From: Deltaproteobacteria bacterium
GTDB taxonomy: Bacteria; Desulfobacterota; Desulfarculia; Adiutricales; Adiutricaceae
DNA: 51,148 nucleotides
NCBI GenBank assembly: GCA_031264185.1
Contig: JAISEL010000079.1
Span: 1-51,148 of the forward strand
Direction of reading: 5' to 3'
Below are positions 40,195 to 50,985 of this stretch, in pieces. Made by a program: the position numbers and the translations under genes. Under the pieces are notes generated by a model. It saw only the letters and a list, made by a program, of their open reading frames with translations, did not search any database and had not been told where the DNA came from. Positions within the stretch are counted from its first letter, which is position 1, and each line of letters opens with the position of its first letter.

Positions 40195-42370
40195 ATACTG
40201 TTTACGATAGCCATGACCGTAATCCAGCCCAAATTTCCTCCAGGTGTGGTATAATTGACCAATCAATGGCGACCGAAACTGTATGTTTTCGGCGGTCGGT
40301 GAGTCCCAAGGCTGACAGGCGGAACTTCCATTTTTTATAACCGGGAGCCGGAGGGTGAGATAAGCCGTTCTACGGTAGATTACAAAACTTCCGGGTCTCC
40401 GGGCGGTCAGCCCGGACTCTGCCGGCTGGACCAGCGGCCGTCCGGGGCCGCCTGCTCTGCAGGGGCAGAATTCCAGGCCTGGCCTGAACAGGGGCTTTAA
40501 GTTTAGGGCTATCGGCGGATCACCGGCAATGATCTCCGGCCAGACAGAGATCTCCATGAAATATGAGACGTCTTTTATCTGCCCATAAGGGCTATCCTGT
40601 CATCTGAGGCTGCTTGACTATGACATTTACGGCAGGCGAAAAACTTAAGGGATTGGTTGAAGTTGATTTGCCCTTTGAGAAATATATTTCCCAGGATGCT
40701 CTTTACGTTGACAAGACGTCTTATATTTACAGCATGGTCAGCAATGTAAAACGCCGGTTCCTGTTCCTCTCCAGGCCCAGAAGGTTCGGAAAAACACTGC
40801 TGCTGGATACTCTCAATGAGCTGTTTTTGGGCCACCGCCATCTTTTTGATAGTCTTTGGATAGGCCGGGAGACCGATTACGATTTTCAGCCCCACCCGGT
40901 CATTCGTCTGTCCATGAACTACGCCAAAACTGACAGTTCAAAAGGGCTGGAAAATTTTATCCGCCAAGACCTTCTGGCTGTTGCCAAATCCCTGGACATC
41001 CCTGTCACCGATGATCACCATTGCCTGATTGTTAAGGAACTTTTGGACAATCTGCACGCCAAACATGGCCGAGGCGCGGTGATCCTGATTGACGAGTATG
41101 ACGCCTCTGTAGCTAGGTATATTGATGACCCGTATCTGGCTCAGGCCAACAGCGTAGTCCTTCATGACTTTTATTCGGTTCTTAAAGAAAAACAGAAGAA
41201 AATCCGCTTCGTCTTTGTGACCGGCATAACCAGATTCGCCATGACCGCCCTGGATTCCGGCCCCAACAATTTTAAGGACATCTCCCTTTTGCCGGAATAC
41301 GGCGGGGTCTGCGGTTTTACTGTGTCTGAGTTCGACCGGTATTTCGGCGACAGAATGGAGGACCTGCTTCAGGCCCAAACAGAAAGCGGATATATGCCGC
41401 CTGACAGCCGGGTCAGCGATCTGAGAGAAAAAATACTGGCCTGGTACGACGGCTACAACTGGCTTGGCCCGGAGAGAGTTCTGAATCCCTACGCCCTCGT
41501 GAATCTTTTTGCCGACAGAATATTCGACGATTACTGGGTTCGAAGCGGACAGCCCTCCCATCTTAAGATGATGATCCGTCAAAGGCCTCAGGATTTTCTG
41601 GCTCCTCAGACGGAAGAATATCTTTCATCAAATCTCAGAAAAGTCGATCTCCAGCGCCTGAAACCTGTACCTGTTCTTTTTCATTCAGGTTATCTGACCA
41701 TTGATAAAGTCATCTTCTTTTCCCCAAAAGCAAAAGTCGCCGGTAAAAAACGTGAACCCCAAATCGGCTACACCTTCAAGTTTCCTAACAGCGAAGTTGA
41801 GACAGGCTATGAAGAAATTTTGGAGGATGTTTTCGGCCGGACGGGCTACGACAGTATTTTAAGCCTGACTCCCAAGTTTTTGGCCGCCGTGGACGGCCGG
41901 GACTCCGAGACCGTCGGGATTCTGTTCATAAATTTGCTGTCCTCCATCACTTTCTGCCAGCATACGCCCGAGGAGTCATTTTATCACGCCCTCTTTCAGG
42001 GATGCTTGGCTTCAGGCGGACTTAAGGTGTCGGGTGAAGTGGCCGGGGCAGTCGGACGCTCGGACATCATTGCGGAGCGCCCTGGGGGCAGGTATCTGAT
42101 AATTGAGGTCAAGTACAGGAAAAAAGAAGAGGGCCACACCGATTCCGACCTGAAAAAAGAACTGGCGGAAGCTTCGAAAGAAGCCTTAAAGCAGATTGTT
42201 GATAATGACTACGCCGGACCGATCAGAGGGTTGGCTAAAGAGATCACCGGCCTTTCCCTGGCTGTGTACGGAAGGAAGCATGTCAGATCGGATTTCGTGA
42301 CAAAAGATCTCATGAAGCCGCAGCCTGTCCGGTGAGGCCAAAATCATTTTTCGGCCGTTCAGACGGACAA
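40195..42370. repeat. Tandem duplication, copy A
   Basis: Aligns with 42800-44776. Upstream noncoding shared phrases include TCAGCCCGGACTCTGCCGGC, GGACCAGCGGCCGTCCGGGG and GAGGCTGCTTGACTATGACA; it ends beyond the ATPase gene at CCGGTGAGGCCAAAA. Copy A has a working gene, copy B does not. Confidence 0.85.
40620..42335 (+). CDS. AAA-ATPase-like / DUF1703 nuclease-like protein, intact
   Basis: 571 aa. N-terminal KLKGLVEVDLPFEKYISQDA, YVDKTSYIYSM, Walker A FLSRPRRFGKTLLLDTLNEL, Walker B AVILIDEYDASVARYI, sensor-like FVFVTGITRFAMTALDS, and a C-terminal DUF1703 nuclease domain with GRSDIIAERPGGRYLIIEVK (D...ExK). All key residues are present. Function unknown; same family as 28487-30256 but clearly a different subgroup. 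ATG at 40620 or TTG at 40614 is possible; GAGG lies at 40606. Confidence 0.85.
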   Translation: MTFTAGEKLKGLVEVDLPFEKYISQDALYVDKTSYIYSMVSNVKRRFLFLSRPRRFGKTLLLDTLNELFLGHRHLFDSLWIGRETDYDFQPHPVIRLSMNYAKTDSSKGLENFIRQDLLAVAKSLDIPVTDDHHCLIVKELLDNLHAKHGRGAVILIDEYDASVARYIDDPYLAQANSVVLHDFYSVLKEKQKKIRFVFVTGITRFAMTALDSGPNNFKDISLLPEYGGVCGFTVSEFDRYFGDRMEDLLQAQTESGYMPPDSRVSDLREKILAWYDGYNWLGPERVLNPYALVNLFADRIFDDYWVRSGQPSHLKMMIRQRPQDFLAPQTEEYLSSNLRKVDLQRLKPVPVLFHSGYLTIDKVIFFSPKAKVAGKKREPQIGYTFKFPNSEVETGYEEILEDVFGRTGYDSILSLTPKFLAAVDGRDSETVGILFINLLSSITFCQHTPEESFYHALFQGCLASGGLKVSGEVAGAVGRSDIIAERPGGRYLIIEVKYRKKEEGHTDSDLKKELAEASKEALKQIVDNDYAGPIRGLAKEITGLSLAVYGRKHVRSDFVTKDLMKPQPVR

Positions 42371-45943: not shown

Positions 45944-48322
45944 TCAGGCCCGGCCCCAGAACGTCTGGTTGGCTGTTTCCAGGTGGGGCAGATGGAGGGA
46001 CAGGTGTTTGGCCACCAGGTAAGCTGAGTGGATGGAGTAATAGCCGCCTACACCCGGGTCCGGCCAGAGATTATTGGGATGCTCGGCCATATACTCTTTA
46101 AAAGCCGGCACCCCCCGGGAGACTATGAGCTTGACCGTCGGTCTGGTCAGGCCGGTTAAAGCGGCGGCTATAAATTCCGAGATCCAGGCTGGACTGTCGG
46201 ACTCAAATGTGGCCGGCTGGCCGCCCAGAGCCATGGCCAGAGTCTTGGCCTCGGCGCTGACTTCCCTGACAAAATTAGCCATGGCCAGGGGATTGCGGAG
46301 TTCTCTTTTGTGGTGAAGGAAAGCGCCGTACAGGGAATAGGCGTCAATTAAGGCGGCCGCCGTCTGGACGCCTATGGGATCGTCACTTAAATGGACTTTA
46401 AAAGATCCGAACTTAAACAGCGACGATTCCGACATCCGGCCGGTTTTGACCGGACCGGCCAGGATCCACAGACCGCCCAGATTCTGGAGCAGATCGTCGG
46501 GATAAAAAGGCCCGGACAGAACTAGGATATTCGTTTTCGGACGTCCGGCCGCCACCGCCGCTTCCCAGGCCATCTGGACGGTCAGCCGGTGGGACAGGCG
46601 GTCAAAACCCCGGCTGGCTAAGATTAAGCTTTTCAGGTCCCCGGAAAAGGCGAAAATGGTCTTAAAAAGATCGGCTGTCTCTTCCGGGGGAGTGGCTACA
46701 ATGACTTCGCTGGCTTTGCGGAAGGCTTCCATAAAGTCATAGGTGGGAAAGACGTTTTTCGGCAGGCGGGTATCGAACCCGGCCAGGCCCCGGGTTTCGG
46801 CCATGGACTGGATAGCCGCTTCCGAGGGATCATATAGAGAAAGAGAGGAATTGTGAAACTTTTTGTCATTTAAGGTCCGGCGCCCGATGAACGTGACTAC
46901 CGAAAACCCCCAGCGTCCGGCCCCGCAGACAACCAGGTTTTCTTTGGCCGAGGGGCTGTACAGGCGGCGGTCGCTGTGGGTGGCGTAATAGGACAGGGTG
47001 TGGGGTGAGATGATTTGAGGCATTTTGGCGAAAAGTCTGGGCTTTATGACTTTCCGCCTGGTCAGGGATTCTAACCCGTCGGCAACGGTTTCGGCTAAAG
47101 TGTGATCCCGGATATAATCTTCCAGATCCGGCTCCTGGCCGAAAACCCGGCGGTGGTAATTCTGGATAAACTCCAGAGCGTGGGCTGCGGACTCTTCTAA
47201 AGTTTCGTCTTTCTCCCGGCGTATGGGATCCAGCCCCCCGGCCGTCAGCTGGGAAGCCATGATCTTTTTGTCTTTGGCAATCTCCCGGATGGCGTAAAGA
47301 GCGGTAAACTCATCTAAAGCCAGATCCCTGGGCCCTTCCTGCCACTCGGCTTTCAGGTCCGACAATAAACGGCTCTGACCGAAAGCCACAAAGGTCCGGC
47401 CGTAGATGTTCCTGAGGCCTCTGGCCAGACTTCTTATGGGCTTTAAGGGATTTTTCAGTAATTCCCTCCACATCCGGTGACCGGACAGCCACGACCAGAC
47501 GCCTAAACCTTCGGCCAGATCCCGGTCCTCGGGCACCCGGCTGTAATTTATGATGACCGGCTGGACTAAAACATCGGTCCGGGCGGCTAAAGAGCCCTGG
47601 ATAGTCACCAGACGCCTGGGATAACGGAGACTGCCGTCCCGGGTTCTGGCCCCGCCGGACCAGGCTTCCAGAAATATGCCCTGGGGTTTGCCGATTTCGG
47701 CTAAGGCCTGACAGTAATGGAAAAGAGCCGAAAGATAAGTTCGGCTGGCCCCTTTGCGGACAATGACGTAAGAACCGAGCATGAGCATAGTGGCCAGAGT
47801 CGGGGTGGCCATCATATTCTGGCCGGCGGCGAACAAAGGCATGTTCAAATTATTCTGGTCCAGAAAAACATTAAATATGAATTCGTCCCAGTGGGAAGAA
47901 TGGTTAATCAGATAAACAATGCCCAGCCCTTCCCGCTGGGCTTTTTGCAGCTGGGGCAGGTATTTAAGCTCTCTTTGATCGGCTGAGGTAAAGATTCTGT
48001 TTTGATCTCCGGACTGAAAAAGATGGGTAATTAAATTATAGCAGGCTCCCTTGGCCGCCTGATGGAGTTCGGCATTATAACGGCAGGAAATCAGGTTAAC
48101 CAGACCGGTCAGTTCCTGCCGGTTGGCCGGTTCGCCTTTATCTTCCAGAGCCCGGGCCGTTAAATCCACAGCCAGCCGGGCAATTTGGTCCTGATCTTCG
48201 AAAGCCGGTCCGGTCCGGCTGACTTTTTCCATGTAGGTTTTTCCTGGTTCCAGGCCGGCCAGGTATCTGGCTGTTTTGACAAAATCCAGACGCTCGAAAG
48301 CGGCTTTCATTATAAAATTCAT
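45944..48322 (-). CDS. PlsB-like acyltransferase fused to GpsA-like G3P dehydrogenase
   Basis: 792 aa. Residues about 60-430 form a glycerol-3-phosphate acyltransferase domain of the PlsB group: motif I NHSSHWDEF (HX4D, His141 and Asp146), motif II-like GSYVIVRKGASRTYLSALFH, motif III EAWSGGARTRDGSLRYP. Residues about 460-790 form an NAD(P)-dependent glycerol-3-phosphate dehydrogenase domain of the GpsA type: NLVVCGAGRWGFSVVTFIGR (GxGxxG), SLSLYDPSEAAIQ, SEVIVATPPEE, LILASRGFDRLSHRLTVQMA and VLSGPFYPDDLL. A fused enzyme would make glycerol-3-phosphate and acylate it in one chain. The usual catalytic Lys of GpsA is not obvious, so the second domain may be altered. ATG at 48322 (MNFIMKAAFERL) is chosen over GTG at 48352. 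Confidence 0.8.
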   Translation of the reverse strand: MNFIMKAAFERLDFVKTARYLAGLEPGKTYMEKVSRTGPAFEDQDQIARLAVDLTARALEDKGEPANRQELTGLVNLISCRYNAELHQAAKGACYNLITHLFQSGDQNRIFTSADQRELKYLPQLQKAQREGLGIVYLINHSSHWDEFIFNVFLDQNNLNMPLFAAGQNMMATPTLATMLMLGSYVIVRKGASRTYLSALFHYCQALAEIGKPQGIFLEAWSGGARTRDGSLRYPRRLVTIQGSLAARTDVLVQPVIINYSRVPEDRDLAEGLGVWSWLSGHRMWRELLKNPLKPIRSLARGLRNIYGRTFVAFGQSRLLSDLKAEWQEGPRDLALDEFTALYAIREIAKDKKIMASQLTAGGLDPIRREKDETLEESAAHALEFIQNYHRRVFGQEPDLEDYIRDHTLAETVADGLESLTRRKVIKPRLFAKMPQIISPHTLSYYATHSDRRLYSPSAKENLVVCGAGRWGFSVVTFIGRRTLNDKKFHNSSLSLYDPSEAAIQSMAETRGLAGFDTRLPKNVFPTYDFMEAFRKASEVIVATPPEETADLFKTIFAFSGDLKSLILASRGFDRLSHRLTVQMAWEAAVAAGRPKTNILVLSGPFYPDDLLQNLGGLWILAGPVKTGRMSESSLFKFGSFKVHLSDDPIGVQTAAALIDAYSLYGAFLHHKRELRNPLAMANFVREVSAEAKTLAMALGGQPATFESDSPAWISEFIAAALTGLTRPTVKLIVSRGVPAFKEYMAEHPNNLWPDPGVGGYYSIHSAYLVAKHLSLHLPHLETANQTFWGRA

Positions 48323-48417: not shown

Positions 48418-49731
48418 CTAGGGAGCGGAACTGACCGGCTCCAGAATATAAGCCTCCAGATCTTCCGGCAGACGGTCAAAAACCAGCATAAAAGGGACAG
48501 CCTTGTTGGGCGGCACATTGACATTGGAATTGTCCTGGCCGCCTTTTAATGAAAGCCGGGCTAAAATTTCCGGCATGGGCAGAGAGGTCAGCTCCTCCTC
48601 GGTCAGGTAATTACCGGCAAAAACCTGACGTTCGGCCACCACTTCCCCTTTACTGTCTTTCAAGGAGCCTTTCAGGCGGATAAAACTGCGGCGGGCCGGA
48701 TAACCGTTGGAAATCCGGCCGGTAATAATTAAGATGCGCCCGGAGCTGCGGTTAATCCGGTAGTGGTGGCTTTCCTGATCCTGGACAAAATTAAGCCTGG
48801 CCGAGTTATTAGGATCGCTGCCGGCCTCGTCAGCAGGCCGGTCGGCCGAGCCGGGGACTGATCCGGGTCCCGGATCTTCCGGTGAGTTAAGGCCGGTCGC
48901 CTGGAGGGCCACCTGGCTTTGGGGTTTTTGCCAGACTGACAGAAAAAAAAGGCCGATGACTAAAAAAGCGATGACTATGGCCGCAATCAAAAAAAATTTC
49001 CGGTTACTGCTGGCCGGCTCTCTTTTTTTAGGCTGGCGGCTTAAGGCCGGCCCGGGGGGTAAAGGGTCCGAAGGAGAGCCGGCCGGTTCCGGCCCCCCGG
49101 TCATTTCGTACGGTCCGTCTGAAACCGGAACATCTTCAGGGGCTTTTTCAAAAATGACTTTGCGTCTGACGGGCCCGGCCGTCACCGGCTCGTCTGACAG
49201 ACCCAGATCAAAATTATTGGACCCGAGGTCCTCAAAATCGGGCTCATTTTCTTCATATGGGCTGATGCTCCGGCCCCCGAAATCAGCCGCCGGCTCTTCG
49301 CCGGGATAATCCAAAGGAAAGCCGGGCTGAACCTTATTGGAGCCCGCAGATTCATGACCTGCAGCCGGATCCGCGCCTCTCCCCGGCGGTTCGGCCGGCA
49401 GGAACCGCTCGGCCGGGTAGGGGGGGCGGGCCAGCAGGACAGGTCTTCGGTTCCGGGGGGAAGGTGTCCGGTCAGAATCAAAGAGATCGTCCAGTTCCCG
49501 GTCCAGAGCATCCATTGAGCCCTGGTCATAAGGATTAGACGACCGGGGATTGCGGTTTTGGGAATTACAGGGCTCTTCTTCCGGAGACCGGGACGGTTCC
49601 GGCTCGTCCGGGGCTCTGAAAACCGTAAAGATATGCTGGCAGTTGGAACAGCGCACCCGCGAACCGGTTTGCTTGATAAGCTCGTCAGCTACCCGGAACT
49701 TGGTCTGACACTCTTCGCAGGTGATGATCAT
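48418..49731 (-). CDS. Zinc-ribbon, membrane-anchored DUF3426 protein
   Basis: 437 aa. An N-terminal MJ0042-type zinc ribbon, MIITCEECQTKFRVADELIK then CSNCQHIF (two CxxC pairs), a long acidic, Pro-rich disordered linker (about 45-240), one membrane helix KFFLIAAIVIAFLVIGLFFL, and a C-terminal DUF3426 domain with SSGRILIITGRISNGYPARR and IRLKGSLKDSKGEVVAE. This is a common layout in delta- and other proteobacteria; function unknown. ATG at 49731 is chosen: the ribbon starts right after it, as in relatives. It is 30 bp downstream of hpt. Confidence 0.85.
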   Translation of the reverse strand: MIITCEECQTKFRVADELIKQTGSRVRCSNCQHIFTVFRAPDEPEPSRSPEEEPCNSQNRNPRSSNPYDQGSMDALDRELDDLFDSDRTPSPRNRRPVLLARPPYPAERFLPAEPPGRGADPAAGHESAGSNKVQPGFPLDYPGEEPAADFGGRSISPYEENEPDFEDLGSNNFDLGLSDEPVTAGPVRRKVIFEKAPEDVPVSDGPYEMTGGPEPAGSPSDPLPPGPALSRQPKKREPASSNRKFFLIAAIVIAFLVIGLFFLSVWQKPQSQVALQATGLNSPEDPGPGSVPGSADRPADEAGSDPNNSARLNFVQDQESHHYRINRSSGRILIITGRISNGYPARRSFIRLKGSLKDSKGEVVAERQVFAGNYLTEEELTSLPMPEILARLSLKGGQDNSNVNVPPNKAVPFMLVFDRLPEDLEAYILEPVSSAP

Positions 49732-49761
49732 CTTGCCTTCCAAAGGGTTTTAGTCAGCGGA

Positions 49762-50319
49762 TTACTGGGGGGTTTTAAGGACGTAAATTCCGGGCAGCTG
49801 CCGGTATTTTTCAGCATAGTCAAGTCCGTAGCCCACTAAGAAGCCGTCTTCCACCGTAAAACCGATATAATCAAGGGGTATTTCTACCCGGCGGCGGGCT
49901 GTTTTGTTGACCGCCACAGCCAGCTTTAAGGAGGCCGGTTTTTTGCGCCTTAAATGCTCCAAAAGCCAGGCTAAAGTCAGCCCGTAGTCGGCGATATCTT
50001 CCGCCACCAGGACATGGCGGCCCTTGACTTCCTTTTCCAGGTTTTTAAGCATAACCACGTGGGTGCTGGCTTCGGTCTGATTCTGGTAACTGGACAGGCG
50101 GACAAAATCTATCTGGACAGGCAGATCCAGATTCCGGACCAGATCGGCTAAAAAAATAAAGGCCCCGTTCAGGATGCCAATGACCAGCAAAGGCTCTTCC
50201 GGGGCCAGAAGATCCTGATAGTCCAGAGTAATGGCCCGGCCCATTTCCGCCACCCTGACCCCTATTTCCTGGGGGCTGAAAACTGTCTCCAAGGCCGGCA
50301 GCTGGGAAGAGATAGCCAT
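49762..50319 (-). CDS. hpt: Hypoxanthine phosphoribosyltransferase
   Basis: 185 aa. PRTase fold: GAFIFLADLVRNLDLPVQID, the PRPP-binding motif VLVAEDIADYGLTLAWLLEH, and KYRQLPGIYVL at the end, as in bacterial HPRTs. The enzyme salvages hypoxanthine (and guanine) with PRPP. In most HPRTs the motif reads VEDIIDTG or VEDIIDSG; here Tyr replaces the Thr/Ser that touches the PRPP phosphate, which is unusual. ATG at 50319 is chosen (AGGACC 3 bases before it); the upstream start at 50343 adds 8 residues. It is first in a minus-strand operon. Confidence 0.9.
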   Translation of the reverse strand: MAISSQLPALETVFSPQEIGVRVAEMGRAITLDYQDLLAPEEPLLVIGILNGAFIFLADLVRNLDLPVQIDFVRLSSYQNQTEASTHVVMLKNLEKEVKGRHVLVAEDIADYGLTLAWLLEHLRRKKPASLKLAVAVNKTARRRVEIPLDYIGFTVEDGFLVGYGLDYAEKYRQLPGIYVLKTPQ

Positions 50320-50985
50320 AAAGGTCCTATGAATAAAAACCAACTATTCAGACTTAAAAAGAATTGGTTGCAGAAAAATAAATGCCAAAGGGACGAAAAA
50401 ATAATAATATTTTACAGACATATAGCGGCAAAAGATAACTAAAAGACTAATCCAAAATAATGGCCGATTTAATCTTAAAGACCTTTATTTAACCATGTCT
50501 ATTGATATTACACCTTTTAGCCGGTCAGAGGCAACCACAACTTTTGTTGTCCAGCAATTCTAATTTTGGCCAGCAGCACTTTTCGGATCGTTCAGGCGAG
50601 GACCTGCTGAACAACAGACTCCACTTCCTGAATCTGGTATTGACCGGAACAGGCCGAATCTGCACCATAGTGAACAGTCAGCGTTTCTCCGGATTCTTTG
50701 TTCCGGTTGATCAGAGCCCGGAACCCTAATCCTTTTAAAATAAGTCTGTCAGCTTAAATTTACGAATCTCCAGAGACATCCATATAGTATAAAATAACAT
50801 TAGCCCTGCCTGTTATCTGATTGTTTTTATAAACATTATTAATAAACAACTAAAAATATTTAAAGATTAATTTGTTATAATATATATATTAATTTTATCT
50901 AAGGTATTTGTCATTCTTCTAAAAAATTTGATTTAACTTAAATTTTTTATTGATACATAAATTTTTTCATGTATAATTAGATAAT
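50320..50985. other. Intergenic between hpt and the transposase
   Basis: The right part is very AT-rich. A 75-codon frame at 50502-50729 has no family and is probably noise; a minus-strand frame of about 50 codons at 50590-50745 has no start codon. No RNA gene recognised. Confidence 0.4.

Follow-up and report, generated by a model that had tools for sequence, protein, structure and literature searches.

Each of the two protein families that meet in the gene analyzed here is known. Members of the PlsB/GPAT1 family (PF01553, TIGR03703) have an acyltransferase fold that carries an HX4D motif, a block II arginine, a block III glutamate, and a block IV proline, all of which recur in the present protein. 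The second family is GpsA, the NAD(P)-dependent glycerol-3-phosphate dehydrogenase (PF01210, PF07479). In the human enzyme, GPDH, single loss of K120, K204, or R269 costs 5.3, 3.1, and 9.1 kcal/mol in terms of the reaction rate, respectively (PMC12874384); we paired these residues with Lys110, Lys195, and Arg259 of E. coli GpsA by conserved motifs, a match made in this analysis. The PlsX/PlsY system serves the same metabolic step as the fusion, but belongs to an unrelated protein family. No report of such a PlsB-GpsA fusion was found in a literature search whose coverage left out most subscription journals and, as far as we searched, the combination of these known components, in two lineages that have opposite halves inactivated, is undescribed.

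The window, the whole stretch of 51,148 nucleotides that was analyzed, comes from a deltaproteobacterial genome of 4.4 Mb that is 97% complete. The fusion gene lies on the minus strand as a single 792-codon frame, with the ATG at 48322 and the stop ending at 45944. The first-pass annotation had proposed that a PlsB-like domain with HX4D and a GpsA-like domain with GxGxxG share one 792-residue chain, and the open reading frame, the profiles, and the motifs all agree with this architecture:

45944..48322, minus strand: fused gene, PlsB-type acyltransferase plus GpsA-type domain, 792 amino acids plus stop (open reading frame, Pfam and NCBIfam matches, full-length relatives)
47357..47968, minus strand: acyltransferase domain, residues 119-322 (PF01553 and PlsB profile matches; profile-profile match to PlsB)
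47885..47905, minus strand: HX4D motif NHSSHWD, residues 140-146, with H141 and D146, invariant in 33/33 class relatives
47633..47671, minus strand: block III, LEAWSGGARTRDG, with E219 and a longer loop in place of the usual EGGRSRTG
47543..47563, minus strand: block IV, QPVIINY, with P255, invariant
46958..46990, minus strand: junction motif YYATHSDRRLY, a signature of the fusion family, with Y446, D451, R453, and Y455 invariant in both fusion lineages
45947..46942, minus strand: GpsA-like domain, residues 461-792, predicted glycerol-3-phosphate dehydrogenase fold (PF01210; structure match to Coxiella GpsA)
46907..46927, minus strand: GxGxxG dinucleotide motif CGAGRWG (GAGRWG being residues 467-472), loosely kept in the family
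46610..46612, minus strand: R571, where E. coli GpsA has its catalytic Lys110
46346..46348, minus strand: I659, where E. coli GpsA has its catalytic Lys195

The acyltransferase half matches PF01553 over residues 130-258 (E 5e-11, 42.9 bits, above the cut-off of 23), and in a profile comparison residues 119-417 align to PlsB with E 7.5e-17, so that the likeness extends into the helical region that follows the acyltransferase domain. The NCBIfam matches, to PlsB over residues 119-322 and to GpsA over 462-706, both fall far under the equivalog cut-offs; because TIGR03703 gives 45 bits against a cut-off of 618 and NF003441 gives 38 against 610, the acyltransferase is, by these profiles, a relative of PlsB and not a PlsB ortholog. 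Unlike PlsB and GPAT1, the fusion has a shorter N-terminus and a longer block III loop, and its GpsA domain takes the place of the final portion of the C-terminal region of PlsB. The motif residues, H141, D146, R189 (block II), E219 (block III), and P255 (block IV), are nevertheless invariant in 33/33 class relatives, and the match of H141 in PlsB, His306, has been reported to be absolutely required (PMC5700162).

The C-terminal half matches the N-terminal GpsA domain, PF01210, over residues 464-605 (E 9.5e-9, 35.9 bits, cut-off 23.1), and the C-terminal GpsA domain, PF07479, gave no match to the protein at E 1. An AlphaFold2 model built from 15 relatives (mean pLDDT 75.8, pTM 0.56) is predicted to resemble GpsA over the complete fold at residues 458-792, with Z 32.8 (308 residues to 3k96), and human GPAT1 with Z 22.6, mainly in the N-terminal half, although, with so low a pTM, the way in which the model arranges the halves against each other is not trustworthy. 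The second half thus shows the GpsA fold and not a different one, and no stop or frameshift separates the halves: dozens of related genomes encode one long frame across both, which rules out a frameshift or misassembly artefact.

Among 118 relatives compared, the full-length chain is present in almost every genome of the window's family and, at 38-49% identity, in other families of its class. The named relatives are termite-gut and similar Deltaproteobacteria, including Candidatus Adiutrix and the closed chromosome of strain Smac51; no plasmid copies were found.

The catalytic sites of the dehydrogenase half were placed by alignment to E. coli GpsA, with 33 distinct class relatives compared to 13 separate GpsA proteins. 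The lysines at positions 110 and 195 and the equivalent of the phosphate-binding Arg259 are present in 13/13 of the separate proteins and in none of the 33 class relatives, nearly all of which have also lost the adjoining equivalent of Asn260; the window protein itself lacks all four residues. The earlier remark that the usual GpsA lysine is not evident is thus borne out, and in fact there are two such lysines, replaced here by R571 and I659. The GxGxxG motif persists in the window protein and erodes elsewhere, with the third glycine changed to alanine in 7/33 relatives and the second lost in 4/33. Across the window's class, PF01210 scores reach 36-48 bits and PF07479 scores at most 17. Yet, the domain appears to be under constraint. 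Among close relatives, dN/dS of the GpsA half is 0.05-0.10 within the window's genus, and two further pairs give values of up to 0.23; these are similar to those of the acyltransferase half and lower than those of the linker, the ratios being rough, with synonymous sites near saturation, and reliable only in their ranking. A decaying pseudogene is ruled out by this constraint, equal, within such rough ratios, to that on the acyltransferase half. The best reading of the C-terminal half is that it would be a catalytically dead GpsA domain, with the fold retained under purifying selection.

The gene content of the genomes provides a second line of evidence. The window's own genome encodes a normal separate GpsA with all motifs present, and a separate GpsA was found in every class genome tested at adequate completeness, bar one draft (G040). 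Neither PlsY nor PlsX was found in the own genome, the one genome tested for PlsX, nor was any other PlsB, only PlsC-like and Aas-like acyltransferases being present besides the fusion; PlsY is likewise absent from 12/12 tested genomes of the window's family, one of them at chromosome level, although gene absence in draft genomes can reflect incompleteness. The fusion is, therefore, apparently the only recognizable glycerol-3-phosphate acyltransferase of the window's genome and the sole visible candidate for the first acylation in its family. Outside that family, most related families of the class have PlsY, so that there the main role may not fall to the fusion. In two drafts from the window's order, G037 and G039 (96% and 90% complete), no fusion, PlsY, or PlsB-size acyltransferase was seen, which leaves the first acylation step in these genomes without a visible enzyme. 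On contig C135 of the window's genome, L027 is a 1155-residue chain reminiscent of LplT-Aas fusions, in which a PlsC-like acyltransferase stands together with transporter-like and acyl-ligase parts.

A mirror image of this arrangement exists within the same phylum. Family f19, from a different class, carries a fusion chain at 27% identity, and one more fusion-bearing family, f61, came out of a search through 394 genomes of the phylum. In these fusions, it is the GpsA half that looks intact, with both lysines kept in 7/7 sequences that reach that far, PF01210 scores of 86-107 bits, and PF07479 scores of 86-105 bits. The complete acyltransferase motif set is present in 0/8: the catalytic histidine is tyrosine in 3/3 fusions of f19, the block III glutamate is arginine in 5/5 of f61, and the block II arginine is lost in 8/8. 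No separate GpsA was found in the f19 and f61 genomes, where complete fusion copies reach 85-112 bits for PF01210 and every other match stays under 37 bits; these genomes do carry separate PlsB-size acyltransferases, and two of these give strong PlsB scores. Motif state thus matches genome content in both fusion lineages wherever tested, and the agreement runs in both directions, with a separate GpsA beside the inactivated dehydrogenase half in the one and a separate PlsB beside the broken acyltransferase half in the other. All eight mirror-image fusions, from the lineage of genomes G075, G112, G160, G355, G372, G423, and G439, carry asparagine in place of the first dinucleotide-motif glycine, even though no other GpsA seems to be encoded alongside them, which calls for some caution about their presumed dehydrogenase activity; a glycerol kinase, rather than the GpsA half of the fusion, could be the source of glycerol-3-phosphate in f19 and f61. 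At two f19 loci (L063:4261-5772 and L064:3396-4910) there is a PlsB-like acyltransferase of 503 residues, its motifs intact, whose chain stops directly behind YYSNSIIHLF, about where the GpsA domain starts in the fusion; judging by its motifs and length, it is a minimal PlsB that lacks the final stretch of the C-terminal region.

Whether the tree is built from the GpsA half or from the acyltransferase half, the two fusion lineages group together against all separate proteins with support of 100/100 each; branches are long in the acyltransferase tree, where one lineage has support of only 90/94, and the reference set of the GpsA tree comes mostly from the same phylum. Because both trees agree and the junction motif is common to both lineages, the PlsB-GpsA fusion probably arose only once; two independent fusions, which would have to account for the same grouping from both halves as well as the shared junction, are not favoured. 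Given that each half is intact in one lineage, the ancestor may have had both activities. No chain with both active sites intact occurs among the fusions compared (33 + 8), and no living relative of this kind was found among some 400 genomes from the phylum or in the class of the mirror-image family. That an ancient bifunctional chain lost opposite activities in the two lineages, with the dead half kept as an obligatory scaffold or regulator, is a scenario to which we would give even chances; it would amount to a reciprocal knock-out of a fused metabolic enzyme that took place in nature and could be predicted from genome content.

With considerable confidence, we interpret the window gene as a PlsB-type glycerol-3-phosphate 1-O-acyltransferase with a catalytically dead C-terminal GpsA domain, derived from an ancient PlsB-GpsA fusion in which the two lineages suffered opposite half-losses. 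Under this interpretation, glycerol-3-phosphate would be made by the separate GpsA, and the PlsB-like half of the fusion would perform the first acylation, with the pseudo-GpsA domain sitting in place of the rest of the PlsB C-terminal region, where its role would be in the first place structural or in assembly (or regulatory) and only in the second place that of a ligand sensor. In the window's class, the dehydrogenase half would have died and the acyltransferase half been kept; in f19 and f61, it would be the acyltransferase half that died, with the dehydrogenase half kept as the only GpsA.

A rival reading makes the GpsA half a sensor that binds dihydroxyacetone phosphate (DHAP), glycerol-3-phosphate, or NAD(H) without turnover and tunes the acyltransferase. 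The retention of the fold and of the whole domain under purifying selection after the loss of catalysis, and the GxGxxG motif that is still there in the window protein, speak for a sensor, but hardly any relative keeps the phosphate-binding arginine or the adjoining asparagine, and erosion of the dinucleotide glycines has set in within part of the family, so that neither classical ligand site looks conserved and we regard a sensor as rather unlikely. The suggestion of the first-pass annotation that the second half may be a sensor rather than an enzyme therefore divides: the loss of the catalytic residues supports its non-enzymatic part well, and the eroding glycines speak against an NAD sensor, at least in that part of the family where they occur.

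As to the acyltransferase half, an acceptor other than glycerol-3-phosphate is possible because the PlsB score is far under the equivalog cut-off and the block III loop is altered. The fuller version of this idea, in which the substrate would be, for example, DHAP or a lysophospholipid and the GpsA-like half would aid its binding, draws additionally on the existence of DHAP acyltransferases among PlsB relatives and on the coexistence of PlsY in sister families. Nevertheless, it seems decidedly unlikely in the window's family, which has no other glycerol-3-phosphate acyltransferase: some protein must perform this step, and the fusion is the only candidate left. Least of all do we expect a true bifunctional enzyme, with the GpsA half making glycerol-3-phosphate and handing it directly to the PlsB half, as had been proposed at the outset. 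The two pathway steps follow each other in the right order for such channelling, and the ancestral fusion, each half of which looks intact in one lineage, may have worked in this way, but in the window chain the idea founders on the loss of both catalytic lysines and of the Arg259 and Asn260 equivalents across the class, and on the intact separate GpsA of the genomes tested at adequate completeness, G040 excepted; we consider it extremely improbable here.

If the preferred reading, a live acyltransferase coupled to a dead dehydrogenase domain, is true, the two lineages would contain a built-in control for the contribution of a pseudoenzyme domain to its partner, while also bearing on whether the ancestor channelled glycerol-3-phosphate. 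Control of membrane-lipid synthesis would then be linked to a retained dead enzyme in gut symbionts without the PlsX/PlsY route. For annotation, there is a warning in that both lineages would be assigned two activities, of which each is likely to have a single one, not the same in the two.

Upstream of the fusion, on the minus strand at 48418-50343, the window encodes an MJ0042 zinc-ribbon/DUF3426 protein and a hypoxanthine phosphoribosyltransferase; the same upstream gene order recurs at one related locus (L020), and a DUF3426 gene also precedes the fusion at another (L016). Elsewhere in the window, at 40614-42335 on the plus strand, lies a gene for a protein that joins an AAA-ATPase-like domain (PF09820) to a PDDEXK nuclease (PF08011).
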